Below, piece by piece: positions 14,096 through 35,166 of a DNA stretch of 64,000 nt. Location of the stretch: the NCBI RefSeq assembly GCF_038003085.1, contig NZ_JBBOOM010000001.1:1-64000 (forward strand). Direction: 5' to 3'. Under the pieces are notes generated by a model, which saw only the letters and a program-made list of their open reading frames with translations, was not told the origin of the DNA and made no database searches. A program made the position numbers and the translations under genes. This DNA is from Psychrobacillus sp. FSL K6-2836 (GTDB taxonomy: Bacteria; Bacillota; Bacilli; Bacillales_A; Planococcaceae). Each line of letters starts with the position of its first letter. Position 1 is the stretch's first letter.

Positions 14096-14574
<479 letters not shown>

Positions 14575-14952
14575 TCACTCCTTTTCTATTCTATATCTCC
14601 AATTTGCATGTTTTACATTATTCTGATCTATGTACGGAATACTTGCTTCTATTACATCATTTAGATTTAACTTATTGCTTTTAGCTAGTAACCTTAAACT
14701 CTCCAGTAAGTCCTTATCACATGTAGTCCTAAATTCTACGCGATCTTTTGGTCTATTTTTCTTGTCATAGATTAATGTACTTTCATTTAAAATATTCTCA
14801 AATCCGTTTTCTAATAAATATCCAATATTCGAATTGGATTCTTTTGCCAGCGTTTTGAGCTTCTTTATTAAACTAGCACTTATCCGTGTTTTATACTCAG
14901 TTCTAGTTTCATCAACTGTTTGTATTAACTTTCCGTTTACTATTTTCCACAT
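14575..14952 (-). CDS. Tandem ribbon-helix-helix-like protein
   Basis: About 125 residues, ATG at 14952 with AAAGGTG eight bases upstream. Two similar halves each look like a ribbon-helix-helix unit: KTRISASLIKKLKTLAKESN near residue 22 and VEFRTTCDKDLLESLRLLAK near 75. Each has a basic beta strand, a polar helix and a hydrophobic second helix. RHH proteins bind DNA as dimers; two halves in one chain would make a pseudo-dimer. It lies 90 bases downstream of the recombinase-like gene on the same strand, so the pair may be one transcript. Not a known toxin-antitoxin partner pair as far as I can see. Confidence 0.6.
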   Translation of the reverse strand: MWKIVNGKLIQTVDETRTEYKTRISASLIKKLKTLAKESNSNIGYLLENGFENILNESTLIYDKKNRPKDRVEFRTTCDKDLLESLRLLAKSNKLNLNDVIEASIPYIDQNNVKHANWRYRIEKE

Positions 14953-15041
14953 TCTTTTCACACCTTTATAATGATCTATGTTTTTACGCTATATCTGCTT
15001 ATTTTACCACTCTAAAACATATCTTTAGCCGAAACCATGTG

Positions 15042-15584
15042 TCACTGCTTAAACTGGTCTAAATAGCGATATAGCGTTGATTTGCTTATACCTGTTTCGT
15101 CTTTAATTTGCTGAAGTGTATATTCTTTAGTTTCATACATATAAAATGCTCGATTTAAATTATCATCAGATTTTTTAGGACGTCCAATGACTTTCCCCTG
15201 CTTTTGGGCCTCACGTACACCAAAAATTGATTGATGACGTTTGATTTTTGTTTGAAGATCTGTCATTAACTCTAGAACTTCTATTAACTTCATCGATAAA
15301 ATATCCGTACTTTTTATGTTTTCATCAATAAATGTTACTGTAACTTGATCTCTTTCAAATACACGTAATAAATCTTGAAAATGCGTTAGAGAATCCGCCA
15401 ATACAACAAAATTTTGTACATATAGTTGATCACCATTCGAGAGCTTCATAACTAAAGCATCTAATTCGTGTCTTTTTTTCATATATGGATGATGCTCTGT
15501 GTAGGTTTCTATATTTGGTATATCTATTAGCTGAAACCTCGAGTCTTCATCATTTGTTAATGGTCTTTTGTATCCGTATTTCAT
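15042..15584 (-). CDS. Serine-recombinase (resolvase/invertase) homologue without catalytic serine
   Basis: 180 residues from ATG at 15584 (GGGGGAG four bases upstream), the length of small resolvases. The N-terminal fold is visible from the start motif to VQNFVVLADSLTHFQDLLRVF and HQSIFGVREAQKQGKVIGRPKK, and ends in a Hin-type helix-turn-helix (TLQQIKDETGISKSTLYRYL). The active-site motif is normally Y-x-R-V-S-T; here it reads YGYKRPLTND, so the nucleophilic Ser is replaced by Leu. It should bind DNA but not cut it by the usual mechanism, which points to a regulatory role or a decayed enzyme. Divergent from sulP with about 120 bases between the starts. Confidence 0.75.
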   Translation of the reverse strand: MKYGYKRPLTNDEDSRFQLIDIPNIETYTEHHPYMKKRHELDALVMKLSNGDQLYVQNFVVLADSLTHFQDLLRVFERDQVTVTFIDENIKSTDILSMKLIEVLELMTDLQTKIKRHQSIFGVREAQKQGKVIGRPKKSDDNLNRAFYMYETKEYTLQQIKDETGISKSTLYRYLDQFKQ

Positions 15585-15614
15585 TTTTCTCCCCCATATT
15601 CCCAAAACCATTCC

Positions 15615-20819: not shown

Positions 20820-21362
20820 TTACTTTTTCCAATCACTTGCTAACATTCCATAAACTACATGATCGACATAATGGTCATATAGCCACTCCGCCTGCCTAAC
20901 ACATCCTTCTTCCTTGAAACCAAGTCTTTCAGGAATAGCCCTACTTTTTTTGTTTTGTACAGCAGCACGAATTTCTACTCGGTTTAATTGTAATTCTACT
21001 AATGCATACTCCACAAATGCTTCTACTGATTTAGTCATTAATCCTAATCCAACATAATCATTCCCTAACCAATAACCTATGCTAGTCGATTTGTTATTCC
21101 AATCAATTTTATGGAACCCAATTACACCAGCAAGGCTCCCATCGTACCAAATCCCAGCTTGAAAACCGTTATTATCACTAAATTGCTTCATGGTTGATTG
21201 GATGAAATTTTTCGTGTCGTCAGAAGTTCTCGTAAAATCTATAAATGGGAGCCACTCTCTTAACGTATCCTTAGATTGAATTGTTAATGCGAACAAATGT
21301 TCAGTGTCCCGTAAATCGAGCATTTTTAAGTAAGTTTTGTCGTTTATTTTGAATGAAAACAT
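20820..21362 (-). CDS. RimJ/RimL-type GNAT acetyltransferase
   Basis: 180 residues from ATG at 21362 (AAAGGAGG six bases upstream). RimL features: GVIGFHKIDWNNKSTSIGYW, LGNDYVGLGLMTKSVEAFVE (acetyl-CoA motif with GLGLM), and NRVEIRAAVQNKKSRAIPERLGFKEEG. Probably acetylates a protein N-terminus or a small amine. Its upstream region carries the first dif-like site, so its promoter borders the maltodextrin module. Confidence 0.85.
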   Translation of the reverse strand: MFSFKINDKTYLKMLDLRDTEHLFALTIQSKDTLREWLPFIDFTRTSDDTKNFIQSTMKQFSDNNGFQAGIWYDGSLAGVIGFHKIDWNNKSTSIGYWLGNDYVGLGLMTKSVEAFVEYALVELQLNRVEIRAAVQNKKSRAIPERLGFKEEGCVRQAEWLYDHYVDHVVYGMLASDWKK

Positions 21363-21384
21363 AAAAATCCTCCTTTTTCGCTGC

Positions 21385-21408
21385 ATTTAGTTTACATAAT
21401 AATATTAT
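21385..21408 (-). repeat. Dif-like (Xer) site A
   Basis: 24-bp sequence, identical to site B and differing at one base from site C. On the minus strand it contains ATTATGTAAACT, identical to the XerD arm plus one base of the B. subtilis dif site. The expected XerC arm is not recognisable. Lies between the GNAT start and the end of the LacI-family gene. Confidence 0.6.
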
Positions 21409-21449
21409 ATAACTATTTGTGTGTATGTACTTCCAACATTTGGTACCAA

Positions 21450-22481
21450 CTATGGTTTTATAGGTGCCACATCACATGATTGTCTTACAACTAATCTATG
21501 AGGTACTATAATACGTTTAACGGGTTCATTTTCATTTTTTAATAATTGGATTAAACTACTAGCTGCTTGGTAACCTAGTTCTTTAATATTAATATCAATA
21601 GAAGTAAGTGGTGGTCTAGACATCTCTGCAAACAATGCATTATTAAAGCTAACAATCGATACTTTAGTTGGAATATCAATTTGCATTTCGGTGAGTGAAT
21701 TTACTACACCAACCGCCATCAAATCATCCGTAACAAGTAGGGCTGTTGGGGGAATAGGTCTTCTTAGGAGTGCTTTGACAGCCTCCTGTCCACCCTCACG
21801 TAGAAAGTCTTCATGAATAATATAATCCTCATCCAAATCTATATTAGATGACCTCAGAGCTTCTTTATATCCATTTAGACGATCTAATGTAACCGTTAAA
21901 CTTGGACTTCCCCCTATAAAACCAATTTTTTTATGACCAAGTTCTATTATATATTCGGTAGCTTCTTTTGCCGCCATGTAATTGTCGTTATCAACGTGGG
22001 TAATTTTATCAACTAAATCATACGGTTTTCCAATTACAACAAAAGGAAATTTTCTTTTTGTTAAATACTCCATAATTTTGTCATCAATCATGGAGTAAAG
22101 GAGGATAATACCATCTACTCGACCACCTTGAACCATTTGAACGACCCCTTCATAGGAATCGAACTCTGTTTTTCCACTAGTCATTTGTAGTGCATAGTGA
22201 TTATCGTGTACACCCTCGCTTAATCCCTGTATGACCTCTGAAAAGAATGGGTTTTGAAAAAATACGCCTGATGAGTGAGGTAAAACTAGACCTATCACTT
22301 TAGTCGATTGACTCGCTAGGCTACGGGCGATAAAATTAGGATGATATTTAAGTTCATCCATCGCGTCCCTTACTCGTTTCTTTGTATTTTCACTTATACG
22401 GGGGCTATTTGCAATCACCCGAGAAACAGTTGAAGGAGCAACATTGGCCAGTTTCGCCACATCTTTGATTGTTATCGCCAT
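21450..22481 (-). CDS. LacI-family repressor, probable maltodextrin regulator (MalR-like)
   Basis: 343 residues from ATG at 22481 (GAGG eight bases upstream). N-terminal LacI HTH TIKDVAKLANVAPSTVSRVI and hinge YHPNFIARSLAS, then a periplasmic-binding-like sugar domain (VIGLVLPHSS, GIILLYS, LVTDDLMAVGV). It is the last gene of the maltodextrin cluster, 40 bases after the glucosidase stop codon. Two 20-bp LacI-type sites occur in the divergent control region at 29990-30131 and would suit it. The inducer is expected to be maltose or a maltodextrin; this is inference from context. Confidence 0.88.
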   Translation of the reverse strand: MAITIKDVAKLANVAPSTVSRVIANSPRISENTKKRVRDAMDELKYHPNFIARSLASQSTKVIGLVLPHSSGVFFQNPFFSEVIQGLSEGVHDNHYALQMTSGKTEFDSYEGVVQMVQGGRVDGIILLYSMIDDKIMEYLTKRKFPFVVIGKPYDLVDKITHVDNDNYMAAKEATEYIIELGHKKIGFIGGSPSLTVTLDRLNGYKEALRSSNIDLDEDYIIHEDFLREGGQEAVKALLRRPIPPTALLVTDDLMAVGVVNSLTEMQIDIPTKVSIVSFNNALFAEMSRPPLTSIDINIKELGYQAASSLIQLLKNENEPVKRIIVPHRLVVRQSCDVAPIKP

Positions 22482-22524
22482 TAGAAATTCCTCACTCTCT
22501 TTCATTTCCTTAAATCACTTTAAT

Positions 22525-24189
22525 TCACTTATATAAGTATACTCTTACTTCGTATGGATTTAGAGAAATAGTCTCTGATAGCTGCTCCGGTGCATCTTTA
22601 TAATTATATAATATTAGTTCCGTGCCGCGTTGTGGAAGATGTTTTAACGTAAGCTCCGCACTATATTCTCTAAAGTTACATAAAACAATCGCAAACTGAT
22701 CATTTAGTGCTCGTGTGTAGACATACACATCAGGATGCTCTTCTTGTACTACATCATATTCTCCATAAACAAAAACAGGATTTTCTTTTCTTACTTGAAT
22801 CATTTTTTTATAGAAATGATAAATAGAGTCTTTATCCTCTAGTTGATCAGCGACATTAATCGTCACATAATTTGGATTCACCTTCATCCATGGCTCACCT
22901 TCTGAAAATCCAGCGTTTAAAGAATTCTCCCACTGCATAGGGGTTCTTGAATTATCACGCCCATTACGCCAAATGATTTCCATTACCTGTTCATGTGGTT
23001 TACCATTTTCTATTTCTAAATCATAAAAGTTCTTCATACCAATGTCATCGTAATCTTGAATAGATGGAAACTGAACATTTGTCATTCCAATTTCCTGTCC
23101 CTGATAGATAAACGGGGTTCCTTGCATAAGGAAGTAGCACCCGGCTAGCATTTTAGCACTCTCATTCCAATATTCTTTATCATTCCCCCAACTCGAAACG
23201 CTTCGAGTCTGATCGTGATTTTCAAGAAATAGTGCATTCCACCCTTTTTGGTGCAGCCCTTTTTGCCATTTCGTAAGAACTTGCTTTAAAGCGATAACAT
23301 CTACTGAGTTATTGAGTGCCTTGTTCCAAAGCCCGAGATGTTCAAACTGAAAAATCATATCAAATTTTCCATTCTCTTCTCCAACCCACTCATCCGCCTC
23401 GTCTATCCCTACTCCATTTGCTTCACCAACTGTCATAATATCGTATTTAGCAAAAGTCTCTACCTTTAACTCTTTTAAATACTCTTGTATACCAGGCTGG
23501 TTCGTATGCATCTCAAATGACGAAACATATTTTTCATGATTGGGATTAGGCATATCCGGTAATCCATCACGTTTTTTAATGTGACTGATTGCATCTACTC
23601 GGTAACCATCGATTCCTTTATCAAGCCACCAATTGACCATTTTAAAAAGTTCCTGTCGAACTTCTGTATTTTCCCAATTCAAGTCAGGCTGTTTCGTTGC
23701 AAATAAATGGAGATAGTATTGATCCGTCAGCTCATCTTGCTCCCATGCGCTCCCAGAGAAAATACTTTCCCAGTTATTTGGTTCTTGATCTCCTTTACTA
23801 TCCTTCCAAATATACCAATCCCTTTTAGCATTTTCTTTAGAAGAGCGTGATTCGATAAACCAAGGATGCTCATCGCTTGTATGGTTGATAACCAGGTCAA
23901 GAATCAGTTTCATACCTCTTGCGTGTATTTCTTCCAATAACTCATCAAAATCGTCTATGTTCCCAAACTGCTCCGAAATACCCTGATAGTCACTAATATC
24001 ATATCCATTATCTGCATTTGGAGACTTATAGAACGGGCTGACCCATATAACATCGACACCCAAGTCCTTCAAGTAATCTAATTTCGTAATAATTCCTCGT
24101 AAATCGCCGATTCCGTCACCATTGCTATCCATGAAACTTCTTGGATATACCTGATAACTGACAGCTTCTTTCCACCATTTTTCTTTCAT
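22525..24189 (-). CDS. GH13 alpha-glucosidase / oligo-1,6-glucosidase
   Basis: 554 residues, the typical length of MalL/oligo-1,6-glucosidases. GH13 regions in order: DLVINHTSDEHPW (I), GYRVDAISH with the nucleophile Asp (II), MTVGEANGV with the acid/base Glu (III), FLENHDQTRS (IV). Start WWKEAVSYQVYPRSF is characteristic of the subfamily. Cytoplasmic: it would split imported maltodextrins to glucose. RBS GAGAGGAG ten bases before ATG 24189. A trehalose-6-phosphate hydrolase is the main alternative, but the cluster has no PTS gene. 13 bases or so separate it from the amylase gene. Confidence 0.9.
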   Translation of the reverse strand: MKEKWWKEAVSYQVYPRSFMDSNGDGIGDLRGIITKLDYLKDLGVDVIWVSPFYKSPNADNGYDISDYQGISEQFGNIDDFDELLEEIHARGMKLILDLVINHTSDEHPWFIESRSSKENAKRDWYIWKDSKGDQEPNNWESIFSGSAWEQDELTDQYYLHLFATKQPDLNWENTEVRQELFKMVNWWLDKGIDGYRVDAISHIKKRDGLPDMPNPNHEKYVSSFEMHTNQPGIQEYLKELKVETFAKYDIMTVGEANGVGIDEADEWVGEENGKFDMIFQFEHLGLWNKALNNSVDVIALKQVLTKWQKGLHQKGWNALFLENHDQTRSVSSWGNDKEYWNESAKMLAGCYFLMQGTPFIYQGQEIGMTNVQFPSIQDYDDIGMKNFYDLEIENGKPHEQVMEIIWRNGRDNSRTPMQWENSLNAGFSEGEPWMKVNPNYVTINVADQLEDKDSIYHFYKKMIQVRKENPVFVYGEYDVVQEEHPDVYVYTRALNDQFAIVLCNFREYSAELTLKHLPQRGTELILYNYKDAPEQLSETISLNPYEVRVYLYK

Positions 24190-24268
24190 GATTGAAGTAC
24201 TCCTCTCGTGCAGATCTTTCTTTTGTCGGTTTTGACAAACATTTGGTTCGAGCATATCTAATCGGTAC

Positions 24269-25804
24269 CTATTTCAGCTTTTTTTGCTTTATTCGATTGA
24301 ACCAAATGAAAAGGATCAATAACATCAAAACGATGCTCACCATCCAAATGCCTGTAGTTAACCGATTATCATTCTGTCGATCCACTAGCTTATATATTTC
24401 GGACTGGCCACTTTCCAAATGAATCGTATACCCATCCTCATCTGGTTTAACTAATTCTCCAGCTAATAATCCTTGTAACTCTTTTCCTGTTTCTTTCTCT
24501 TCATCCAGTACTACGGTTTGAGCTTCCGAGGTATTGTTGATTGCTATTACTACTGTTTCATCAGCATAGGTCCTTTTATAGACAGTCCATCCTGTGTCAT
24601 CACCTAAAAGTTCCATATCACCCCTAGTCAGTGGCAACTGCTGCTGTCTTACTGCTCCTAGTTTTGTGATATATTCAACCAGCTCAGCATCTTCCTCAAA
24701 ATTCATCATTCGACGATTATCTGGATCATTTCCTCCGTCCAATGCGATTTCTGTTCCATAGTAGATGATTGGAATGCCTGGAGCAGAATACATATAAGTT
24801 AAACCAAGTTTTAACCTTGCTACTGGATCCTGATTATTCTGGATTGCCAAATTAGTGAACCGTTGCATATCATGATTGTCGATAAATTGACCAAGCAGTT
24901 CTGGACGCTCAAACAATTTATCGTTTCGCTCATTATTTGAAAATAACCAACCAAGTGATTGATCCGATTTTTCAAAAGCGGTTCTTAGAGATCCATTTTG
25001 GGAAAAGTCCATGAAACCATCGATACCTGTATCCTGATAACCAACTATGATATTGGGGTTATCATGCCAAACCTCCCCTATCAAAAAGAACGATTCTTTC
25101 ACTGATTTCACTTCAGCTGAAAATTCGGTCCAAAATTCCTTTGGAACATGTTTGACCGTGTCCAGTCTATATCCATCGATATCTGTTTCTTCTATCCACC
25201 ATTTTGCAGCATCTAATAAATACTTACTAACCTCTGGATTGTCTTGATCTAAGTCGGGAAGATCATATAACCAACCAGTTTCCACTTCTTGTTGGTTATT
25301 CCAATTGGAAATGGACTTATTTTGATGAAACCACTCTTCTTTAGTAGGATCACTTAGCCACTCGTGATTTGGTCCAACATGGTTAACAACAAAGTCGAGA
25401 ATCACTTTTATATCCAGTTTGTGGGCTTCCTCTACAAGTGTTTTGAAATCTTCCATCGAGCCAAAATACTCATTCGTTTCATAAAAATCCTTTATCCAAT
25501 AGCCGTGATACCCTTTTTCCATATTTTCAAAAATGGGTGTCAACCAAATAGCTGTAAAACCCATTTCTTTAATATAAGCAAGCTTCTCTGTTATTCCTTT
25601 AAAGTCCCCACCATGATACGCAAGTGGATCGTTTATATTAGCATCGTAATCATTACTCGTATCTCCATTATTAAATCGGTCCACCATAATACTATAAATA
25701 ACCTCATCCTGCATCTTTCGTTCTTCACTAGCGAGAGCTGTCAGTGGACTTACAGTGGCAATTAAGAGCGATATTAAAACAAAGAGCATTCCACTTTTTT
25801 TCAT
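24269..25804 (-). CDS. Secreted, C-terminally membrane-anchored alpha-amylase (GH13)
   Basis: 511 residues. Signal peptide (MKKSGMLFVLISLLIA to LTALASEE), catalytic barrel with DFVVNHVGPNHEW (I), GYRLDTVKHV nucleophile (II), LIGEVWHDN acid/base (III), FIDNHDMQRF (IV), a C-terminal beta domain, and then a single membrane helix (GIWMVSIVLMLLILFIWF) followed by a basic tail. The enzyme would be held on the outer face of the membrane and degrade starch or maltodextrins beside the ABC importer. ATG at 25804 with GGGGAAG seven bases upstream. In the operon between malG and the glucosidase. Confidence 0.9.
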   Translation of the reverse strand: MKKSGMLFVLISLLIATVSPLTALASEERKMQDEVIYSIMVDRFNNGDTSNDYDANINDPLAYHGGDFKGITEKLAYIKEMGFTAIWLTPIFENMEKGYHGYWIKDFYETNEYFGSMEDFKTLVEEAHKLDIKVILDFVVNHVGPNHEWLSDPTKEEWFHQNKSISNWNNQQEVETGWLYDLPDLDQDNPEVSKYLLDAAKWWIEETDIDGYRLDTVKHVPKEFWTEFSAEVKSVKESFFLIGEVWHDNPNIIVGYQDTGIDGFMDFSQNGSLRTAFEKSDQSLGWLFSNNERNDKLFERPELLGQFIDNHDMQRFTNLAIQNNQDPVARLKLGLTYMYSAPGIPIIYYGTEIALDGGNDPDNRRMMNFEEDAELVEYITKLGAVRQQQLPLTRGDMELLGDDTGWTVYKRTYADETVVIAINNTSEAQTVVLDEEKETGKELQGLLAGELVKPDEDGYTIHLESGQSEIYKLVDRQNDNRLTTGIWMVSIVLMLLILFIWFNRIKQKKLK

Positions 25805-25838
25805 GGTCAAACTTCCCCACTTCTTTCCATTAAGGTAA

Positions 25839-26681
25839 TTAACCTTTCGTACCCCCAGCTGTAAGACCAGAGATAAAATATTTTTGAAATGATAGGAAAA
25901 GAATTGTAATCGGAATAGCTATCAAAACCGACCCCGCAGCGAAAGTAGTAAATTCATTACCAAACTGCTTGGAAACTAATTCGTATAAACCGACACCCAT
26001 TGTAAACTTTTCTTCCGTGCGTAGCATAATACGAGCGAGTATGAAATCACCAAATGGAGCGATAAATGAAAACAGGGCTACCACTGCTATGATTGGCTTA
26101 GATAATGGCATAATTATTTGCCAAAAAATTCGTAAATGGCCTGCTCCGTCCATACGTGCAGATTCATCCAACTCTTTTGGAATTGTATCCAAATATCCTT
26201 TCATCAGCCACGTATTCATCGGTATCTGGCCGCCTACATAAATAATTATTAGTCCTGCATGCGTGTCTAATAGTCCAGTTCGTTGGGCAAGTACAAAGAT
26301 TGCAATAAGCGCAGCGAAGTTTGGAATCATTTGCAGGACTAGAAAGGTTAGAAGACCATTTTTTCTTCCGATAAATCGGTAGCGTGAGAACGCATACCCA
26401 GTAAACGCTACACTTATAACCGCAAGTACCATTGTGATTAAACTAATTTTCATCGAATTTAAGTACCATAAAACATAATTGGAGTTTTCTGTATCAAATA
26501 AGCTCGTATAGTGCTTAAATGTAGGATTATTAGGAAACATCGTAGAACCTGAAAGACTTTGCCCAGGGTTTAAAGAAGAACCTACAACCCATAGCAATGG
26601 GTAAATAACTATTATCACCGCAATTAGAAGAATAAGATAAGAAACTGACAGTCTGATGATTTTTTCAGTCTTATTAGTCAT
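25839..26681 (-). CDS. Maltodextrin ABC transporter permease, MalG-like
   Basis: 280 residues, six membrane segments. The EAA loop that contacts the ATPase is visible: PKELDESARMDGAGHLRIFW, followed by QIIMPLSKP. MalG family lengths agree. Its start overlaps the malF stop by one base (TAATG), so the two are translationally coupled. No MalK/MsmX ATPase is in the cluster; in Bacillus one shared MsmX serves several sugar importers, which would explain this. Confidence 0.9.
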   Translation of the reverse strand: MTNKTEKIIRLSVSYLILLIAVIIVIYPLLWVVGSSLNPGQSLSGSTMFPNNPTFKHYTSLFDTENSNYVLWYLNSMKISLITMVLAVISVAFTGYAFSRYRFIGRKNGLLTFLVLQMIPNFAALIAIFVLAQRTGLLDTHAGLIIIYVGGQIPMNTWLMKGYLDTIPKELDESARMDGAGHLRIFWQIIMPLSKPIIAVVALFSFIAPFGDFILARIMLRTEEKFTMGVGLYELVSKQFGNEFTTFAAGSVLIAIPITILFLSFQKYFISGLTAGGTKG

Positions 26682-27961
26682 TACATCATATCCTCCTCTT
26701 TGAATGAATTAGTTCGTTTGAATTGCCATAATGCTACTGCTACAACGATAAGTGATAGGAGCATTGTTATTGCTGCTGCTTTTCCATATTGTCCAGAAGT
26801 CATCGTCAATTGATAAATCCAAGAGATTAATATATCTGTTCCCCCAGCATTTTGCCCAGGTAAAGCTGGACCTCCTCCATTGAACAGGAAGATGACGTTG
26901 AAATTATTGAAGTTAAATGTATACTGCGTAATAAGAATTGGAGCAGTTGCATATAGCACCATAGGTAATGTGATACCTCGGAATTTCTGGAAGATAGAAG
27001 CGCCGTCCACATTTGCAGCCTCGTACAATTCATTTGGAATAGATTGAAGCACTCCAGTTGTCATTGCAAATATAAATGGGAAACCTAGCCATGATTGTAT
27101 TAAGATCAACGCTAATCTAGTCCACATCTCTTCTGTCATCCAAGGAATAGCATCGATGCCTAACATACTGAGTATTTGCGTATTGATGACACCAAATGAT
27201 TCATTGAACATACCTGAAAATATTAAGATCGATACAAATGCGGGTACTGCCCAAGGTAAGATTAATATAGTACGGAAAAATGCTTTCCCTTTTAAATCCT
27301 TTTGATTGATCACAACTGCGAGAAAGACTCCAATTGCAACTTGTAATGTCGTTGCCCCAAATGTCCAAACAATTGTCCAACCCAATACACCAAAAAATGT
27401 GGATCTCCAAAGATCTAATTTGAATATATCAATATAGTTTTGAATACCAACCCAATCTACCAGTTTTGCAGGTGGTGAATGATATAAATCATAGTTTGTA
27501 AATGATAGAAGGATTACAAAGATAATTGGGAAAATAACTACGAAGATTAATAATAAAAACCCAGGGGAAATCATTAGATAAGGAAAACCGTTATCCAATA
27601 GATTATGATATTGCTCCCTTACACTATTTAATAGGAATCCTTCATCTCGTTTTTTTCCATTGTTATAAGCATCATAAATATTAAACGCATAAATTCCAAG
27701 ACCGATGATTGCTACCAACAATGCGATGATGCCATCGATCAATAAGAATATGGAATGATCAAGGACTGGAATTTCTCCAAGCGTAATCAGTCCCCAGAAA
27801 CCCCAGTTTAGCGTTTGAGAAAAGCTACTGAAGAATGCGACAGTTAATACTAAGAAAATGATTCCTTTTATAAACTGTTTATTATAAAATTGCCCAATGC
27901 CTGGGATGATAGATAATAACCCGGCATATTTTCTATGTTTGGTTGTGACATTACTATTCAT
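26681..27961 (-). CDS. Maltodextrin ABC transporter permease, MalF-like
   Basis: 426 residues from ATG at 27961; GGAGG lies 11 bases upstream, and the in-frame ATG at 28006 would place that site inside the gene. The N-terminus carries two extra hydrophobic segments (SIIPGIGQFYNKQFIKG, then IIFLVLTVAFF), as in MdxF/GanP-like permeases, before the transporter core. EAA loop: IPNELYEAANVDGASIFQKF followed by GITLPM. Forms the membrane pore with MalG. Its 5' end is only about 25 bases from a structured repeated element, so its translation may be affected by it. Confidence 0.9.
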   Translation of the reverse strand: MNSNVTTKHRKYAGLLSIIPGIGQFYNKQFIKGIIFLVLTVAFFSSFSQTLNWGFWGLITLGEIPVLDHSIFLLIDGIIALLVAIIGLGIYAFNIYDAYNNGKKRDEGFLLNSVREQYHNLLDNGFPYLMISPGFLLLIFVVIFPIIFVILLSFTNYDLYHSPPAKLVDWVGIQNYIDIFKLDLWRSTFFGVLGWTIVWTFGATTLQVAIGVFLAVVINQKDLKGKAFFRTILILPWAVPAFVSILIFSGMFNESFGVINTQILSMLGIDAIPWMTEEMWTRLALILIQSWLGFPFIFAMTTGVLQSIPNELYEAANVDGASIFQKFRGITLPMVLYATAPILITQYTFNFNNFNVIFLFNGGGPALPGQNAGGTDILISWIYQLTMTSGQYGKAAAITMLLSLIVVAVALWQFKRTNSFKEEDMM

Positions 27962-27985
27962 CGTAAATGTCGCCTCCTTCTTCCT

Positions 27986-28260
27986 AAAAAGTGAAACTTC
28001 AATCATTGGGGGTTTTCTTCATCCCCCAATGATTGAAAAACTGAACTCAGACAAAGAACGCCGCATCGTGCGGCAATGCCTGAGTGACCAACATCCTGTT
28101 GGCCCGATCCATTCGTGCGTTTACGGGCAGTTGTCTCCCATTTATGCTTTGTTGCTTTGGCCAAACCTTAAGTGGGAGTATTACGACGTACAGGAAGTAC
28201 TAGTGCCGCTGTTGCCACATGACGTGGTGACTTTAATCGGCCTGCCCGTAAACGCGGGAT
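27986..28260 (-). ncRNA. Structured repeated element, copy 1 (upstream of malF)
   Basis: 275 bp with three nested or adjacent stems: 28000-28012 with 28023-28035 (13 bp, loop TTTTCTTCAT on plus), 28117-28130 with 28242-28255 (14 bp perfect, GCGTTTACGGGCAG), and inside it 28135-28143 with 28070-region partner 28170-28178 (CTCCCATTT/AAGTGGGAG). A diverged copy at 59876-60032 keeps all three stems, with paired base changes. Both copies end about 20-35 bases before a minus-strand start codon. An RNA element or a palindromic mobile element (IS200/IS605-type MITE) would both fit. The 28142-28242 part also holds further small hairpins. Confidence 0.55.
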
Positions 28261-28329
28261 GAAAGGAGAATACTCTCATATTTTCATGCAAATTTTCCTG
28301 AAGTAAACGTTTCTCATACTAATATAGAA

Positions 28330-28366
28330 GCAAAGCCATGCTCCCTATCAGGTAACATGCCTTTGC
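28330..28366. repeat. Hairpin in the malE-malF gap
   Basis: GCAAAGCCATG and CATGCCTTTGC pair with one mismatch over a 15-base loop; T6 follows on the plus strand. With the neighbouring palindromes it makes the malE-malF gap strongly structured. Confidence 0.55.
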
Positions 28367-28431
28367 ACTTTTTTAAAAGATAAGAAAGTATTTAATAATA
28401 CTGTAAATTATTTGACGATACCACTGATTTC

Positions 28432-28552
28432 TGTTTCAGGTGGACGCTTTCCGCGGGGTGAACGATGAGCCATCACCGTAGCTTCGCTTCCGTTGTGATG
28501 GCTCATCTGTCTCACTCATCCCGGTGGAGTCGCCAACTTCCACTTCAATCAA
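28432..28552. repeat. GACGCTTTCC/GGAGTCGCC palindromic repeat, copy H1
   Basis: Begins near GGTGGACGCTTTCCGCGGGG and ends CGGTGGAGTCGCC plus TTCCACTTCAATC. The centre is a perfect 13-bp stem GATGAGCCATCAC/GTGATGGCTCATC. Same outer motifs as copies at 32252 and inside the two MITE-like elements. It lies between malE and malF. Confidence 0.7.
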
Positions 28553-28639
28553 TTAAATGAGCAGTACTTAGCAATTAGATTACAGTACCGCCTCTACTCT
28601 GCTAGGTCGTCGCAATAAAAGTGTAAACTGCTTTTCTAG

Positions 28640-29944
28640 TTAATTCGGATGATTAGTTTCTATATTTGTTTTAATCGTTTTCACTGCATCATCCATTGCT
28701 GCTTTCGGTTCTGCTTTACCAGTAGCAATTGTTTGAAGTGCAGATGCTGCAGGACCCCATACTTCTCCCATTTCAGGAATATTAGGCATAGGTACTGCGT
28801 ATTGAGATTGAAGTGCTACTGCTTTTGCACCTTCATTATCCGCAATAATTGGATCTTCAATCAATGTTGTAACCGGTGGAATTTCTTGCGTTAATTCAAA
28901 ACGAATTTTTGCATTTTCTTCATTTGTTAACCATTCAACTAATTTTGTTGACCAGTATTCATGTTCTGTAAAGGCTGATACATGCCATCCTTTTACTCCC
29001 ATAAATGTTTTCATTTGTTCTCCGTTTGGAAGAGTTGGCATTGCTGTAACCCCAATATCGATTCCAGCGTCCTTCATACTTTGGAAAGCCCAAGGACCGT
29101 CCATTACAGAAGCGACTTTTCCTTCATTGAATAGACCATCTTTAGCTGAACCGCCACTTTCTCCAATAATTCCTTTAGGGAATAAACTTTCTGCGTACCA
29201 TTTTTGAATATATTCTGCTCCAGCGATAGCACCTTCATTGTTTAAACCAATATCATCTCGGTCAAGTGCTCCATCATTTTCTTGGAAGACGTAACCGCCC
29301 ATACCTCCAATAACACCATGTGCAAAGTAAAAGTTATCCCATAACGCTAGGAATCCGAACTTTTTCCCATCAGTGAAATCTTTTGAAAACGCGTATACAT
29401 CATCCATAGTCTCAGGTGCTTCAGTCATTAACGCCTTATTGTAGATAAAGACTGGTGTTTCTGTAGCTTTTGGTAATCCATAAAGCTTCCCATCATACTT
29501 TTGTGCTGTTACAGCAGATTCACTAAAAGTAGAAAGTATTTCGTCACTTACTTCAATTTCTTGAATCAAACCTTCTGTAACAACTTGACCAATTTGATCA
29601 TGAGGTAAAGTTACAACGTCTGCACCAGTTCCCGAAGGACCATCTAAGCGCAATTGTTCACGCATTTTATCTGCCATACCTAATTCTTTAAATTCAACTT
29701 TAATACCGTATTCTGCCTCAAAAGACTCGATTGCAGGCTTTAGAGCGATAGATTTATCTGTGTCTTCCCAAACAATAAGCTTTTCGGGTTTTGCAGGTTC
29801 ATCCGTTGTTTCTGCTCCTGTTTCTGTTTCCGGTTCTTTTTCATCCGTGTTCGCTGGAGCTGTTTCCTCCCTATCTGGACCACATGCCACAAGTAAAACA
29901 ACCGTAATAATTAGCATGAATAACAAAGTTAATGACTTTTTCAT
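28640..29944 (-). CDS. Maltodextrin-binding lipoprotein (MalE/MdxE-like)
   Basis: 434 residues, first gene of the minus-strand operon. Lipobox LLVACG, an acidic Thr/Glu linker, then an extracellular solute-binding domain of family 1: EKLIVWEDTDKSIALKPAI, PKATETPVFIYNKAL, and VASVMDGPWAFQSM. These are close to MalE/MdxE signatures. Captures maltodextrins for MalF-MalG. RBS GGAGGGG. It is 680 bases from malF, and that gap is full of hairpins, which would favour higher malE mRNA levels than malFG, the pattern known in E. coli malEFG. Confidence 0.92.
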   Translation of the reverse strand: MKKSLTLLFMLIITVVLLVACGPDREETAPANTDEKEPETETGAETTDEPAKPEKLIVWEDTDKSIALKPAIESFEAEYGIKVEFKELGMADKMREQLRLDGPSGTGADVVTLPHDQIGQVVTEGLIQEIEVSDEILSTFSESAVTAQKYDGKLYGLPKATETPVFIYNKALMTEAPETMDDVYAFSKDFTDGKKFGFLALWDNFYFAHGVIGGMGGYVFQENDGALDRDDIGLNNEGAIAGAEYIQKWYAESLFPKGIIGESGGSAKDGLFNEGKVASVMDGPWAFQSMKDAGIDIGVTAMPTLPNGEQMKTFMGVKGWHVSAFTEHEYWSTKLVEWLTNEENAKIRFELTQEIPPVTTLIEDPIIADNEGAKAVALQSQYAVPMPNIPEMGEVWGPAASALQTIATGKAEPKAAMDDAVKTIKTNIETNHPN

Positions 29945-29989
29945 TTTTTAACCCCTCCAAAATTTTTGTTTGAACACTACATCCCAAAG

Positions 29990-30009
29990 TTGGACAACCG
30001 TTTGCACAA
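29990..30009 (-). promoter_or_regulatory. LacI-type operator 1
   Basis: Minus strand TTGTGCAAACGGTTGTCCAA; shares TTGTGCAA-w-CG-s-TT with operator 2 at 30112. Lies in the malE leader. Confidence 0.5.
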
Positions 30010-30018
30010 TTAAGAAAA

Positions 30019-30032
30019 AGAAAGCGCTATCA
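30019..30032 (+). promoter_or_regulatory. cre-like site (CcpA)
   Basis: AGAAAGCGCTATCA matches TGWAANCGNTNWCA at all fixed positions except the first. Location in the malE leader fits catabolite repression. Confidence 0.5.
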
Positions 30033-30111
30033 TAAATTTCACTGAAAAATATTCTTTTCCGTCTTCTATTGGTCTTTATATGAGATTTCAAGAATAATAA
30101 TAGTAATAATT

Positions 30112-30148
30112 TTGTGAAAGCGATTGCACAACTTATGGTTTTATTATA
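30112..30148 (-). promoter_or_regulatory. malE operon promoter -10 with LacI-type operator 2
   Basis: TATAAT on the minus strand at 30143-30148, with TTGTTT 16 bases upstream as a weak -35. The 20-bp operator TTGTGCAATCGCTTTCACAA (30112-30131) lies just past the start point, where a repressor would block transcription. The same sequence also matches the cre consensus with one mismatch (30115-30128). Confidence 0.6.
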
Positions 30149-30248
30149 CATTTATTTGAGAAGGAAACAATCTATTTTTTGTAAATTTTTTAAATATTAT
30201 ATTTACACCTCCCTTTCACCATGGATTGTGATATGTTTTGCTTAAGTA

Positions 30249-30258
30249 TTTACGTAAA
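30249..30258 (+). promoter_or_regulatory. Small palindrome before the neopullulanase gene
   Basis: TTTACGTAAA, 28 bases before the ATG, in the leader of the plus-strand gene. Possible LacI-family half site; weak evidence. Confidence 0.3.
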
Positions 30259-30285
30259 CAAATTTGTTTAATTAGGAGATGTATT

Positions 30286-32031
30286 ATGGAAAAAACAGCT
30301 ATTTTTCACCGATCGACCGATAATTTTGCTTATCTACTAAACGATCAAACGCTTCAAATACGGCTTAAAACAAAGCAACAAGATGTAAAAACTGTTTCAT
30401 TAATAATGGGTGATCCATATATTTGGAGTAATGGAAAATGGCAGTATTCGGAATTACCCATGAATTTAGTTGGAAACGATGGATTATTTGACTATTGGGA
30501 AACCGAAGTATTTGCAGCAACTAATAGACTAAGATATGGCTTTAAGTTGAATTCATCAACAGAGGAGATAATTTATACTGAAAAAGGATTTTATGACAGC
30601 ATACCAGTAGATAGTGATTATTATTTTTGCTTTCCTTATTTACACGAAAATGAACAATTCCAAGCTCCAGAATGGGTGAAGGATACTGTCTGGTATCAAA
30701 TATTTCCAGAGCGTTTTGGGAATGCCGATCCTACTATAAATCCCGAAAATGTAAAAGCATGGGGTAGCGAACCTCCCGCAGTAGATAATTTCTTTGGTGG
30801 TGATTTCGCCGGTGTTACTGAACATTTGGACCACCTAACGGACATAGGGGTAAATGGCATCTATTTTACTCCAGTCTTTAAAGCTTACTCGAATCATAAA
30901 TACGATACGATTGACTATATGGAATTGGATCCTCAATTTGGCGATACAGATGCTTTAAAAGAACTTATAGCACAATGTCATAACCGAGGTATTAAGGTAA
31001 TGCTTGATGCCGTATTCAATCATAGTGGTTATTACTTTCCGCCTTTTCAAGATGTCCTAGAAAATGGAGAAAATTCACCTTATAAGGATTGGTTTCACAT
31101 CCATGATTTCCCGGTTGTTGGAGGAGAAAAGCCAAACTATGAAGCTTTTGGATTTGTAGAATCTATGCCAAAGTTAAATACTGCTAATTCAGCGGTAAAG
31201 AAATATCTGCTTGACGTAGGTACCTATTGGATTGAGGAATTTGATATTGATGGATGGAGACTAGATGTTGCAAATGAAGTAGATCAGCCTTTCTGGCGCG
31301 AGTTTAGAAAAATAGTAAAAAATGCAAAGCCTGATATATATATTCTTGGAGAAATATGGCATGATTCCATGCCGTGGCTTAGAGGAGATCAGTTTGATGC
31401 TGTGATGAATTATCCGTTTAAAACAAATGTACTGAACCTTTTAGCAAACAATAGTATTACGTCAAAGCAGTTCGTAGAGAATATGAGTAAGGTTTACTAT
31501 AGTTACCCAAAGACTGTGTTTGATTATACGTTTAATCTTGTAGGCAGTCACGATACTCCAAGAATTCTTACGGAATGCGAAGGCGATATAAAAAAAACGA
31601 AGCAAGTATTTACTATACTTCTAACTTTTATGGGCACTCCCTGCATTTATTATGGGGACGAAATAGGTCTTACAGGTACCCAAGATCCTGGCTGTAGAAA
31701 ATGCATGGACTGGGACGAAGGAAATCATCAGCTAGAGCTTAAAAATCATATTCGGACTCTAAATGCGCTTCGGAAAAAAGAAAAACTGCTAGCTAATGAA
31801 GGTTCTGTAATATTCCTGCACCCTACTGAGGCAAATGGCATATTTGGTTATAAGAAATTTAGCGCTAATAAAACTATTTTAGTCTTACTTAATCCAATCT
31901 CCAGTAACCAAAAATTTTCGCTTGATAAGAGCGAGAATTATAACATACTTTATAGTTCTAATATAGTAATAGAAGGTAATCAAGTTAACATAGAACCAAA
32001 TGGATTTGGAATCATTGAATACAACGTATAA
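30286..32031 (+). CDS. Neopullulanase/cyclomaltodextrinase (GH13_20)
   Basis: 581 residues, the length of neopullulanases, maltogenic amylases and cyclomaltodextrinases. An N-terminal beta domain of CBM34 type (about 1-120) precedes the barrel. Catalytic regions: MLDAVFNHSGYYF (I), GWRLDVANEVDQ (II), ILGEIWHDSM (III), LVGSHDTPRIL (IV). No signal peptide, so it works in the cytoplasm on cyclodextrins, pullulan fragments or maltodextrins brought in by MalEFG. ATG at 30286, AGGAGA six bases upstream. Divergent from malE and sharing its control region. Confidence 0.92.
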   Translation: MEKTAIFHRSTDNFAYLLNDQTLQIRLKTKQQDVKTVSLIMGDPYIWSNGKWQYSELPMNLVGNDGLFDYWETEVFAATNRLRYGFKLNSSTEEIIYTEKGFYDSIPVDSDYYFCFPYLHENEQFQAPEWVKDTVWYQIFPERFGNADPTINPENVKAWGSEPPAVDNFFGGDFAGVTEHLDHLTDIGVNGIYFTPVFKAYSNHKYDTIDYMELDPQFGDTDALKELIAQCHNRGIKVMLDAVFNHSGYYFPPFQDVLENGENSPYKDWFHIHDFPVVGGEKPNYEAFGFVESMPKLNTANSAVKKYLLDVGTYWIEEFDIDGWRLDVANEVDQPFWREFRKIVKNAKPDIYILGEIWHDSMPWLRGDQFDAVMNYPFKTNVLNLLANNSITSKQFVENMSKVYYSYPKTVFDYTFNLVGSHDTPRILTECEGDIKKTKQVFTILLTFMGTPCIYYGDEIGLTGTQDPGCRKCMDWDEGNHQLELKNHIRTLNALRKKEKLLANEGSVIFLHPTEANGIFGYKKFSANKTILVLLNPISSNQKFSLDKSENYNILYSSNIVIEGNQVNIEPNGFGIIEYNV

Positions 32032-32040
32032 ATAATCTAT

Positions 32041-32066
32041 CTAGGCAAGTACTTACACTTGCCTAG
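32041..32066. terminator. Hairpin after the neopullulanase gene
   Basis: CTAGGCAAGT/ACTTGCCTAG with a six-base loop, 10 bases after the stop. The following A5T4 is not a perfect T run, so termination strength is uncertain. Confidence 0.55.
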
Positions 32067-32082
32067 AAAAATTTTAAATACA

Positions 32083-32106
32083 ATTTAGTTTACATAATAA
32101 TATTAT
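32083..32106 (-). repeat. Dif-like (Xer) site B
   Basis: Identical 24 bp to site A, same orientation, 52 bases after the neopullulanase stop codon. Together A and B enclose exactly the maltodextrin genes. Confidence 0.6.
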
Positions 32107-32251
32107 TGTTTTTTATTTGTTAATCAAATCCATCTCAAAAAATATTGATGATTTCACCACTAATCGATAGCCCATATATAAATAATAGTTATAAATTAAA
32201 ACAAGCGAATCAGTTTCATAAAGAATATTATATAGTTAAATCCGAACAACG

Positions 32252-32440
32252 CTGATTTCCCCTTGAGGCGGACGCTTTCCGCGGGCACGGCTTCAATCTC
32301 CTCGTCACTACGAAAACATATGCTCCTGCTGTAACTCGTCGCAAAGACATTGGTCAAACAAAGTTCGACCAATGTCTTTCCTGCCGGGCTTTCAGCCTGC
32401 GCTGTTCCCGCTGGAGTCGCCGCCTGCCACTCCAATCAAC
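32252..32440. repeat. GACGCTTTCC/GGAGTCGCC palindromic repeat, copy H2
   Basis: Longer variant: GAGGCGGACGCTTTCCGCGG at one end, CGCTGGAGTCGCCGCCTGCC at the other. The central 13-bp stem AAAGACATTGGTC/GACCAATGTCTTT lies near 32346-32382. GC-rich compared with surroundings. The rest of the 32107-32567 gap holds no gene I can support. Confidence 0.65.
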
Positions 32441-32567
32441 GGGATCGCTTTTAAAAAAACGAATAATATATTTCGATATTAAATAAACATTCGTATTTTT
32501 AAATGAAACAAGTAATTATGAAATTGACTCAAACATAATACCAATACATATATTTTATTAGTAATAG

Positions 32568-33512
32568 ATGAAAAAAAGTACCAGTATATTAAATGACAAG
32601 GGGCTGACAGAATTACACCATATGAACAAAGAAAAAAGGACGTTCTTTCAATGGATAAATTTTTTAATTCCGTACTTTTATACAGCAGGAATCACGCTTA
32701 TAATATCGTGGATGATCGTTGCATCTATACTAATTGGTTTCCATACATGGAAAGATAATCCCCAGGCTTTTCTTTTACAAACTGAAAGCACTAGCAATAG
32801 TGGTTCTACAATTAATACAGCAGAAACGGCGTTTTCAATAATAGTTAAGCCTTTCGTGGAATCCAATTTTAATCAAATCATTTTTCGTGGCCTTTTTTTG
32901 CTTTTCATATGGTTGCTTCTATTTCTTACTGTACCTGTTGCTTTTAAACGTTTAAAAAGATTCAAGTTTTTAAATCTTGAATTTGAAGTAGATAATATAG
33001 AACAGGCTGCTATAGAAACTGTTGAGATCAGTGGAACTAAAGCAAAACTTATGGCATATTTTACTGGGGATGATGCCTCCGGAAGAACATTAGATTTTTT
33101 GACTCAATCTACAATAGACTTTAAAGAAGTACTGGAGTATTTCCTAGCTGAAACTCAACTAGGATACAAAAATCATCCCATCAATGGCGTCTTTACGTAT
33201 GAAATATACAATGGTGCCGCACCTGAAAAATTCTATGAGTTAGTGGAGGAATCTAAAGAATCTGGGGAATCTGCGGTTTTTAACAAAATCAATGAAGAGA
33301 ATTTGTGGAAGAAAAGCTATCTTGTGTATTACTTTCCTTTTAACCATAATGAATACATTACGGTAATAGAAAGTTATTCCTATTCCTTTGATATACTAGA
33401 TAAGTATTTATTTGAGCTGCTTCATAAAACGATTAGTAAAAACCTGGAGAATATTGAGTATATGGTAGCTTTGACAGACACTGAAGATGATACGAACGAT
33501 GGTAATTACTGA
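32568..33512 (+). CDS. Unknown two-TM protein with C-terminal soluble domain
   Basis: About 314 residues. Two membrane helices (near 38-60, ITLIISWMIVASILIGFH, and 105-125, GLFLLFIWLLLFLTVPVAF) flank an outer loop with many Ser/Thr/Asn. The cytoplasmic C-terminal domain (130-314) has alternating helices and strands, including FTGDDASGRTLDFLTQ, LVYYFPFNHNEYITVIE and YSFDILDKYLFELLHKT. This arrangement looks like a GAF-type sensor, but no diagnostic motif is present. There is no good Shine-Dalgarno before the ATG at 32568. It is the main gene between dif-like sites B and C, so a cargo role is possible. Confidence 0.55.
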   Translation: MKKSTSILNDKGLTELHHMNKEKRTFFQWINFLIPYFYTAGITLIISWMIVASILIGFHTWKDNPQAFLLQTESTSNSGSTINTAETAFSIIVKPFVESNFNQIIFRGLFLLFIWLLLFLTVPVAFKRLKRFKFLNLEFEVDNIEQAAIETVEISGTKAKLMAYFTGDDASGRTLDFLTQSTIDFKEVLEYFLAETQLGYKNHPINGVFTYEIYNGAAPEKFYELVEESKESGESAVFNKINEENLWKKSYLVYYFPFNHNEYITVIESYSYSFDILDKYLFELLHKTISKNLENIEYMVALTDTEDDTNDGNY

Positions 33513-33566
33513 TCTTGACTATGTATTAAAAAAATCATATATCCTAGAAAAAAAGGAGTCATGAAT

Positions 33567-33758
33567 ATGGTAAGTGCCAGAAATCCGATCAATACAGATG
33601 AAGTTAGAGTGCGTGCAGCAGAAAAATTAAGCCGTTTTAGCGCAAGAAAAAAAAATAGAAAAGCTAACACAATTACGGGTGATATTGTTAAACCGATTTA
33701 CCTTAGTAAATCAGAACCATTAGTAAGACGAATGACTTGTTTTCAAAAACATAATTAG
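33567..33758 (+). CDS. Small basic protein of unknown function
   Basis: 63 residues; ATG at 33567 lies eight bases after AAAGGAG (the ATG at 33561 is too close). Rich in Arg/Lys (SRFSARKKNRKAN), without membrane segment. A strong terminator follows after a few bases. No family recognised. Confidence 0.5.
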   Translation: MVSARNPINTDEVRVRAAEKLSRFSARKKNRKANTITGDIVKPIYLSKSEPLVRRMTCFQKHN

Positions 33759-33762
33759 TAAT

Positions 33763-33792
33763 AACCCGCTTCTTCAAAGCGGGTATTTTTTT
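33763..33792 (+). terminator. Intrinsic terminator
   Basis: ACCCGCT (33764-33770) and AGCGGGT (33778-33784) with a seven-base loop, then A and T8. Confidence 0.88.
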
Positions 33793-33959
33793 TGGTGCTT
33801 TAAACTTTTGGAGTGTTTTTTTGCTATTTCTTGCATAATGGGTGAAGATCCAACCAAATCTGCTGCATGCTTTATTGGCAATTTTCCTAGGTTTATATCA
33901 CTAATGCTTTTAAATTTTTCTCCATTTAAATACCTTTTATAAATTTCTGATATTTTCAA
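33774..33959 (-). CDS. Small ORF, 61 residues
   Basis: TTG start with GAGGAG nine bases upstream; product begins MKISEIYKRYLNGEKFKSI and is basic at the end (KHSKSLKHQKKYPL). Convergent with, and slightly overlapping, the terminator of the small basic gene. The ribosome binding site argues for translation; function unknown. Confidence 0.4.
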   Translation of the reverse strand: MKISEIYKRYLNGEKFKSISDINLGKLPIKHAADLVGSSPIMQEIAKKHSKSLKHQKKYPL

Positions 33960-34114
33960 ATTATATTGCTCCTCTCTTCCATCAGCGAAATCGTATGCGT
34001 ATATTGTAGTGTATTCTCTTACTTCAAAAAGTTATTTAAATGAACAAGAAAATTATTCATATTTCGTCTTATTTCAGCAATTTTTCTACAAGTGAAACTA
34101 AACAATTCCATTGA

Positions 34115-34145
34115 ATTTAGTTTACATAATTATATTATGTCAACC
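34115..34145 (-). repeat. Dif-like (Xer) site C, abutting the recombinase gene
   Basis: 24-bp core with one base different from A and B. Here both arms are present: minus strand GGTTGACATAAT and ATTATGTAAACT form an imperfect inverted repeat with a short A/T centre. The TGA of the recombinase gene lies within the site. Confidence 0.6.
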
Positions 34146-35096
34146 TAATTGGTTGAAAGGATTATTTTCTATTACTCGTTCAATTTCTTTATCCTCCACA
34201 TGTGTATAAATCTGTGTAGTAGATACACTAGTATGACCCAAAATATGCTGTAAACTTCTAATATCTGCACCACTCTTATACATAATAGTTGCAGATGTAT
34301 GCCTTAGCTTGTGCGGTGTTAGTTTTTCTTTGTTTAAGCCGGAGTCCTGGTTGATTTGTTTAATGATTTTTGCAACTGTTTGTCGTGTTAATCTAGTTCC
34401 TTTTTGTGACAGGAATAGCGCTTGATTTGTAGTTGCACCTTGTATGTATTGGCGTTCTTTTTCGATATATTTATGTAGTGACACTGTACAAGCTTTGTTT
34501 AGGAAAACGGTACGTTCTTTATCCCCTTTACCTATCACATGCAATACATTATCCTGGACAGATGTAAGATTTAAGCTGCATAGCTCCGAAACACGAAGAC
34601 CTAAATTTAAGAAAAACATGATCATACTATAATTTCTATAGTAGTGATTACTTTTTTTAATACCTGCTATAAATATTTCTGCCTCTTTTTGATCCATATA
34701 AATCGGCTTTTTCTTACCGATTTTAGGCGTTTCCAATTCATCCGCTGGATTTTCGTCCAGCATTCTTCTTTTCCCCTTTAAGTATTTAAAAAAGGATTTA
34801 AGCGTCGCTGCTTTCCTTGCCCGCGAAGCAGCACTATTACTGCGTTTCATTTCACAGTATTCCAAAAACAAATACATATCTTCCAGTGAAATTTCTTTAA
34901 TAAAATCAATCGTTACATCTTTAATAATGATTTTGTCGATTTTAGTTATATCCATATCATTTTCCACCGCTATTAGAAACCTTAAAAATAAAGTGATGTC
35001 ATATTCATACTCTTTTCTTGTTCGTAAAGATTTCCCCTTAATAGTCGTTAAATAGACCAGAAAATCTTTTACTATTTTCGGTAATTCTCTTTGCAT
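34140..35096 (-). CDS. Tyrosine recombinase, XerC/XerD-like
   Basis: 318 residues from ATG at 35096, GAGGTG six bases upstream. An N-terminal SAM-like core-binding domain (FLVYLTTIKGKSLRTRKEY to ATLKSFFKYLKGKRRML) precedes the catalytic domain. Catalytic residues are all present: Arg in NLGLRVSELCSL, Lys in IGKGDKERTVFL, HKLRH, LGHTSVSTTQ and Tyr in IYTHV. Slightly longer than XerC/XerD (about 300). It could be a chromosomal Xer-type protein or a mobile-element recombinase. A dif-like site overlaps its stop codon, and two more copies lie at 32.1 and 21.4 kb, so it is a candidate to act on them. Confidence 0.88.
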   Translation of the reverse strand: MQRELPKIVKDFLVYLTTIKGKSLRTRKEYEYDITLFLRFLIAVENDMDITKIDKIIIKDVTIDFIKEISLEDMYLFLEYCEMKRSNSAASRARKAATLKSFFKYLKGKRRMLDENPADELETPKIGKKKPIYMDQKEAEIFIAGIKKSNHYYRNYSMIMFFLNLGLRVSELCSLNLTSVQDNVLHVIGKGDKERTVFLNKACTVSLHKYIEKERQYIQGATTNQALFLSQKGTRLTRQTVAKIIKQINQDSGLNKEKLTPHKLRHTSATIMYKSGADIRSLQHILGHTSVSTTQIYTHVEDKEIERVIENNPFNQLG

Positions 35097-35130
35097 TGCT
35101 TCCACCTCTTCTTCTCCCATTTTATCACAA

Positions 35131-35166
35131 AATAAGGTTCCCAAATATGTATTTGGGAACCTTATT
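35131..35166 (-). terminator. 36-bp perfect palindrome upstream of the recombinase
   Basis: Arms of 17 bp (35131-35147 with 35150-35166) and a two-base loop; on minus, TTATTTT follows. It can be a terminator for read-through from the amidohydrolase gene or a control site 35 bases before the recombinase start. Confidence 0.65.

Follow-up and report, generated by a model that had tools for sequence, protein, structure and literature searches.

In Bacillus subtilis, the XerD-binding sites at which SMC complexes are unloaded were reportedly defined by Karaboja in 2021 and given the name XDS. XerD-dependent SMC unloading near ter and the term XDS appear in three papers (PMC10945525, PMC8357415, PMC13220808), and another places the unloading at dif (PMC13342612). 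A different type of dif-related sequence is found in the pdif/dif modules of Acinetobacter, which form rows of dif-related sites with differing genes between them and with reordered units (PMC13141974, PMC11705084, PMC12907356). According to PMC13141974, each pdif site combines XerC and XerD arms around a 6-bp spacer and neighbouring sites are inversely oriented, C and D modules alternating, with fused CD modules that would permit pdif sites of the same direction; PMC11705084 describes as active Acinetobacter sites with a divergent XerC arm and a near-palindromic form. Finally, in the XerS/difSL system a single recombinase replaces XerC and XerD, and its gene adjoins a dif-related site (PMC5357621). 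Among the matches listed for the literature on Psychrobacillus Xer and dif, no paper dealt with the sites described here.

The window, that is, the whole stretch of 64,000 nucleotides of Psychrobacillus sp. FSL K6-2836 that was analysed, contains three copies of a 24-mer (Table 1). Their positions and single orientation were confirmed, as was the identity of A with B and the one base by which C departs from them. The repeats are beyond chance, with no match at up to 3 mismatches in 100 shuffles, and the 24-mer proved as scarce as the initial annotation required: in the genome of the window (4.54 Mb, 5 contigs; G000 in our set) only one other match was found at up to 2 mismatches (C1:3719081), so that the repeat is almost restricted to these 13 kb, and with 3 mismatches allowed the matches equalled those of the reversed-pattern control (8 vs 8). 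All three copies carry, as had been proposed, the XerD arm of dif (ATTATGTAAACT, the complement of AGTTTACATAAT). The claim that A and B border a maltodextrin gene cluster (M) also stood, with about 41 bp between A and the lacI stop (21450) and about 51 bp between the neopullulanase stop (32031) and B, and so did that of an XerC/D-like recombinase (REC) beside C, whose integrase domain was matched in Pfam (E 3.9e-44) and whose catalytic residues were identified by eye in the open reading frame. Site C had further been said to hold the REC stop codon; this stop (34140-34142) falls just past the 24-mer, inside the 28-bp footprint of dif length at 34119-34146. Within M, the neopullulanase alone was scanned against Pfam, the remaining names being taken from the open reading frames, and the two-TM gene (T) between B and C had no match in Pfam, NCBIfam or PHROG. 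A small open reading frame of 63 aa without a Pfam match lies 3' of T (33567-33758, +). A GC-rich intergenic repeat with the core GGCGGACGCTTTCCGCGGGC occurs at 28439 and 32267 (+) of the window, and once each in the regions retrieved from G006, G013, G015 and G018.

Table 1. Coordinates of the sites and genes discussed, numbered from the first letter of the window.
Feature	Position	Strand	Remarks
Altered dif	14513..14540	-	XerC arm and centre intact, XerD arm replaced: TGTGGTCATAA TATATA TTATACTAAGT
Ribbon-helix-helix and serine-recombinase-like genes	14575-15611	-	Adjoin altered dif; the latter apparently without catalytic Ser
GNAT acetyltransferase	20820..21386	-	Left anchor of the locus; start probably ~21358
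Site A	21385..21408	+	XerD half-site; upstream of GNAT gene; left border of maltodextrin cluster
Maltodextrin cluster M	21450..32031		lacI-type regulator, glycosidases, ABC transporter genes, neopullulanase
Site B	32083..32106	+	XerD half-site 3' of neopullulanase gene
Two-TM gene T	32568..33512	+	Function not assigned; found in 10/19 Psychrobacillus genomes
Site C	34115..34138	+	XerD half-site at 3' end of REC gene
REC, XerC/D-like tyrosine recombinase	34140..35144	-	Third Xer-like gene, beside host XerD and XerC-like gene

The element conserved through 19 Psychrobacillus genomes (one per species) and the family is a 20-bp half-site, AGTTTACATAATAWWATTAT, made of the XerD arm and the 9 bp that follow it. 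In three site sets the left arm AGTTTACATAA carried 17.1, 16.1 and 17.9 bits and the 9 bp (TAWWATTAT) 11.5, 9.9 and 11.1 bits, values that are inflated because the sites were selected by these positions, a bias of which the outer second arm is free. In the second arm, the outer 8 bp came to 1.8 bits for 30 Psychrobacillus sites away from REC and to 1.0 bits for 21 sites from other genera. At the 18 REC-adjacent sites the same positions reached 8.5 bits and the following 8 bp, which are also REC codons, 7.0 bits, this right-arm conservation being largely due to the codons of the REC C-terminus. On average, the second arm shows a faint inverted likeness to the XerD arm, 3.35 of 7 outer positions matching (shifted controls, 1.9-2.0; other genera, 2.76). 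Covariation between the arms gave no signal, the fraction of shuffles that reached the observed value being 0.11-0.20, and the seemingly matched arm changes of G002, G004, G014 and G015 were discarded accordingly. The idea of a two-arm recombination site was dropped as well, since REC codons explain much of the right arm and covariation of the arms gave no signal; one strong arm, a weak inverted second arm and no sign of covariation thus define a XerD half-site and not an XerC/XerD pair. The analyses of the arms used 48 of 51 Psychrobacillus rows, after removal of three distant chance sites (G003:31836, G009:24212 and G002:37997, in region coordinates), and 21 of 28 rows from other genera, from which two dif, one reverse duplicate, one viral site and three sites with poor cores were excluded. 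A perfectly palindromic version of the site was seen in another genus (L144 252584, in G258), about 0.7 kb from REC.

All 19 Psychrobacillus genomes bear at least one site at up to 2 mismatches. The total of 61 matches (9 with the reversed pattern) includes some near-palindromes scored once on each strand. The genomes share a common locus frame (GNAT gene, site, variable units, site, REC), and REC was found exactly once in each (E <= 1e-60; 71-100% identical). Its named relatives belong to P. psychrodurans, P. antarcticus, P. insolitus, Psychrobacillus sp. OK028 and 'Bacillus sp. FJAT-22090', and one from Lysinibacillus piscis is 62% identical. The REC stop has a site no more than 60 bp away in 18 of the 19, the exception being G001, which has lost it; the same adjacency occurs in other genera (G036, G078, G079 and G143 to G146) and was not seen in the Lysinibacillus loci that were read. 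Across the family, REC (E <= 1e-75) is present in 95 of 261 genomes and 11 of 19 genera, and the site pattern (up to 1 mismatch) in 229 of 261 genomes and all 19 genera, with 19 reversed-pattern control matches by our own tally. Closer inspection of 20 genomes devoid of REC and four possessing it revealed the arm and a TA-rich core in most, in some over 100-700 kb around the terminus. The exact pattern appeared in just one viral contig (L150 8360-8379), and a viral or phage origin of the sites was dropped on this ground.

The position of the sites was then referred to dif. A two-arm dif (XerD arm, TATAAA or TATATA, XerC arm) was found in 9 of the 19 Psychrobacillus genomes and in nine genomes of other genera (G052, G100, G111, G138, G140, G143, G145, G146 and G203). 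A table was compiled by hand from genomes in which the contig with the sites also carries dif, the window's own genome being included through its altered dif. All of its 49 sites (19 genomes; sites not independent within a genome or genus) have the XerD arm turned towards dif, on either side and whichever the direction of dif. Non-site matches such as G052:2327829, G111:2464758, G009:1294881 and G009:2393436 were left out of this table. These sites are in the terminus region, at distances from dif that range between 2 and 312 kb with a median of 27 kb, and in G009 and G111 they occupy both sides of dif.

Searches of the window's genome with B. subtilis-type patterns yielded no dif with the usual XerD arm, and a score scan, applied where these patterns had given nothing, detected an altered dif in the window. 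Such a dif is present in 10 of the 19 Psychrobacillus genomes, the window's included. Left flank, XerC arm and centre are kept in these sequences and the right flank differs, the XerD arm reading TTATGACCACA, or TTATGACGGCA in G004 and TTATGACCACG in G010. Beside the altered dif there is a ribbon-helix-helix gene in eight genomes and, in five, a serine-recombinase-like gene with Leu at the expected catalytic Ser, the second gene being instead homing-endonuclease-like, as read from its sequence, in G008, G010 and G017. At a guess, the altered region might be what is left of an element that had inserted at dif.

Where the sites lie and how they point with respect to dif suggest that they are terminus landmarks. 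The host XerD scores over the curated cut-off and an XerC-like gene is also present in the window's genome; the neighbours of the two genes are what we take to be deoB and trmFO. As a host XerD is present and the B. subtilis XerD unloads SMC at its own terminus sites, we consider it probable that the repeats belong to the XDS kind, as XerD half-sites in the replication terminus at which XerD would bind and SMC would be unloaded. What the genomes themselves show is the sequence of the sites, the composition of their arms, their position and polarity and their distribution in the family; that XerD binds them and unloads SMC there is what we infer. The AGTTTACATAA arm would be occupied by the host XerD alone, with no XerC, and the targets of the two to four half-sites beside dif, all pointing away from it, would be SMC complexes that come from the origin.

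Compared by features, the sites resemble XDS in their terminus location, in a XerD arm devoid of a XerC arm (here with the weak inverted second arm) and in their presence in several copies per chromosome. They differ from XDS in the overlap of one site with a Xer-like gene and in the switching of gene units at the sites. With pdif modules they share the row of dif-related sites with differing genes between them and the reordered units; in contrast to the paired arms, 6-bp spacer and inverse orientation of pdif, they show one strong arm, with 1.0-1.8 bits in the outer second arm, and their orientation is direct throughout, with a single reading direction for all 48 sites of the Psychrobacillus locus. 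The likeness to XerS/difSL (PMC5357621) is that of a recombinase gene adjoining a dif-related site, but the present host also possesses XerD, the XerC-like gene and a separate dif, so that a single recombinase does not replace XerC and XerD in the window's genome. As for the chromosomal dif of Bacillus, the XerD arm is identical, whereas the half-sites lack the XerC arm and are inverted relative to dif in Psychrobacillus. Overall, the sites fit the XDS of B. subtilis better than pdif cassettes. The chromosomal Firmicute counterpart of pdif modules put forward in the initial annotation is not supported in that form, in view of the missing XerC arm, the sites in family members without REC and their fixed position in Lysinibacillus.

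In 11 Lysinibacillus genomes the sites retain the same gene neighbours and are near-fixed while genes come and go between them. The site beside gene L2 is present in all 11, the L4/L5 site in 10 by strict scan, the eleventh having one core base changed, and the site after L12 in 10, G061 being without both gene and site. Genes were inserted between sites in G045, G053, G066 and G071, and no extra sites accompanied these insertions by strict scan, a weak scan of the intervals giving only 15-16 of 20 matching positions. Because the Lysinibacillus sites stay fixed, an integron-like cassette array was abandoned as the main reading. A site spacing of 1.6 kb common to Lysinibacillus and to G005, G014 and G017 was also set aside, as the intervals contain different genes.

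Against the XDS reading, the unit switches at Psychrobacillus sites are not explained by SMC unloading, and the second arm is not wholly free in sequence. The first of these favours Xer-type module exchange, in which units (M, T and others) would be excised, inserted and reordered at the sites by host XerC/XerD or by REC, the latter having its own site at its 3' end, as attachment sites adjoin integrase genes. We regard this as a possible but doubtful account of the repeats. Between GNAT and REC, M and T are each present in 10 of the 19 Psychrobacillus genomes. Every combination of the two occurs (both in 7 genomes, M alone in 3, T alone in 3 and neither in 6), T precedes M in G007, and in one clade T and another unit trade places between the M-side and REC-side sites (G000, G006 and G013 vs G001 and G016). 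MalE of M occurs in 11 of the 19, always at this locus, G001 having a second MalE match elsewhere (52%); in G015, against module exchange, M lies on the far side of GNAT, outside the sites. By our own reading, the sites between GNAT and REC number the units plus one in 11 genomes, a rule that fails in the other eight.

The borders of the units argue in both directions. In six close species, 22 of 70 alignment-block ends between GNAT and REC had a site no more than 10 bp away in each of the two genomes aligned, compared with 5-12% of intergenic bases that near a site and with 0 of 107 ends outside the interval. In these counts the species pairs lack independence, and alignments are attracted by the sites as such. 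With the sites masked, homology extended up to 5-10 bp of the site on the GNAT side and 0-3 bp on the REC side, and the borders of M lay 8-67 bp from a site (right 8-67, left 35-56) and the right border of T 7-61 bp, G006 having there a 2.6-kb insert. Against exchange at the sites, this insert begins on the T side about 90 bp before the site, at the M-REC border of G007 the distance on that genome's side is 232-252 bp, the left edge in G005/G014 is 17-81 bp off, and a 4-kb insert separates G011 from G012, the closest Psychrobacillus pair (98.9% identical), away from any site. REC itself is exchanged between Psychrobacillus species, with identities out of line with the flanks: relative to the window's, REC is 75% identical in G007, with flanking genes at 92-93%, and 89% in G010, with flanks at 80-82%. 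Module exchange is also favoured by the activity of Acinetobacter sites with poor XerC arms (PMC11705084), and is opposed by the gain of genes between Lysinibacillus sites without added sites and by the single viral contig that carries the site.

Accordingly, the earlier proposal that units are swapped as site-flanked blocks holds in so far as units vary between species with edges mostly at or near a site, and not for the off-site insert of G011/G012. The comparison of the 24-mer across related genomes that had been suggested as a check likewise pointed both ways, M and T switching at sites and sites existing also in family members without REC. Most unit edges are within 70 bp of a site in Psychrobacillus, and other insertions ignore the sites; in unit turnover the sites may be used, or may merely be safe, conserved edges. 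The locus is also a hot spot of gene turnover, where Psychrobacillus unit borders often coincide with sites. A double duty, with terminus XerD sites that would unload SMC directionally and at the same time be joints where REC, as a dedicated third Xer-like recombinase anchored by its own site, would swap units beside dif, seems unlikely to us. A cis-regulatory operator or terminator-like repeat common to the three borders, which the imperfect palindrome and the location of site A about 27 bp upstream of the GNAT gene could evoke, is very improbable, since the sites adjoin 3' ends and gene starts with equal frequency, their clusters round dif have a constant polarity, and they include the XerD arm in full.

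The repeats are more likely terminus landmarks than a gene-cassette system. If they are XDS, the family would supply natural examples by the hundred, on both replichores and clearly polarised relative to dif, on which direction-dependent SMC unloading by XerD would become testable, and caution would be called for before taking dif-like repeats at gene borders for cassette systems. If the unit switches were made by Xer recombination, one DNA site would serve both as SMC landmark and in gene exchange, and, should the double duty be true, the terminus would be a chromosomal exchange locus in Psychrobacillus.
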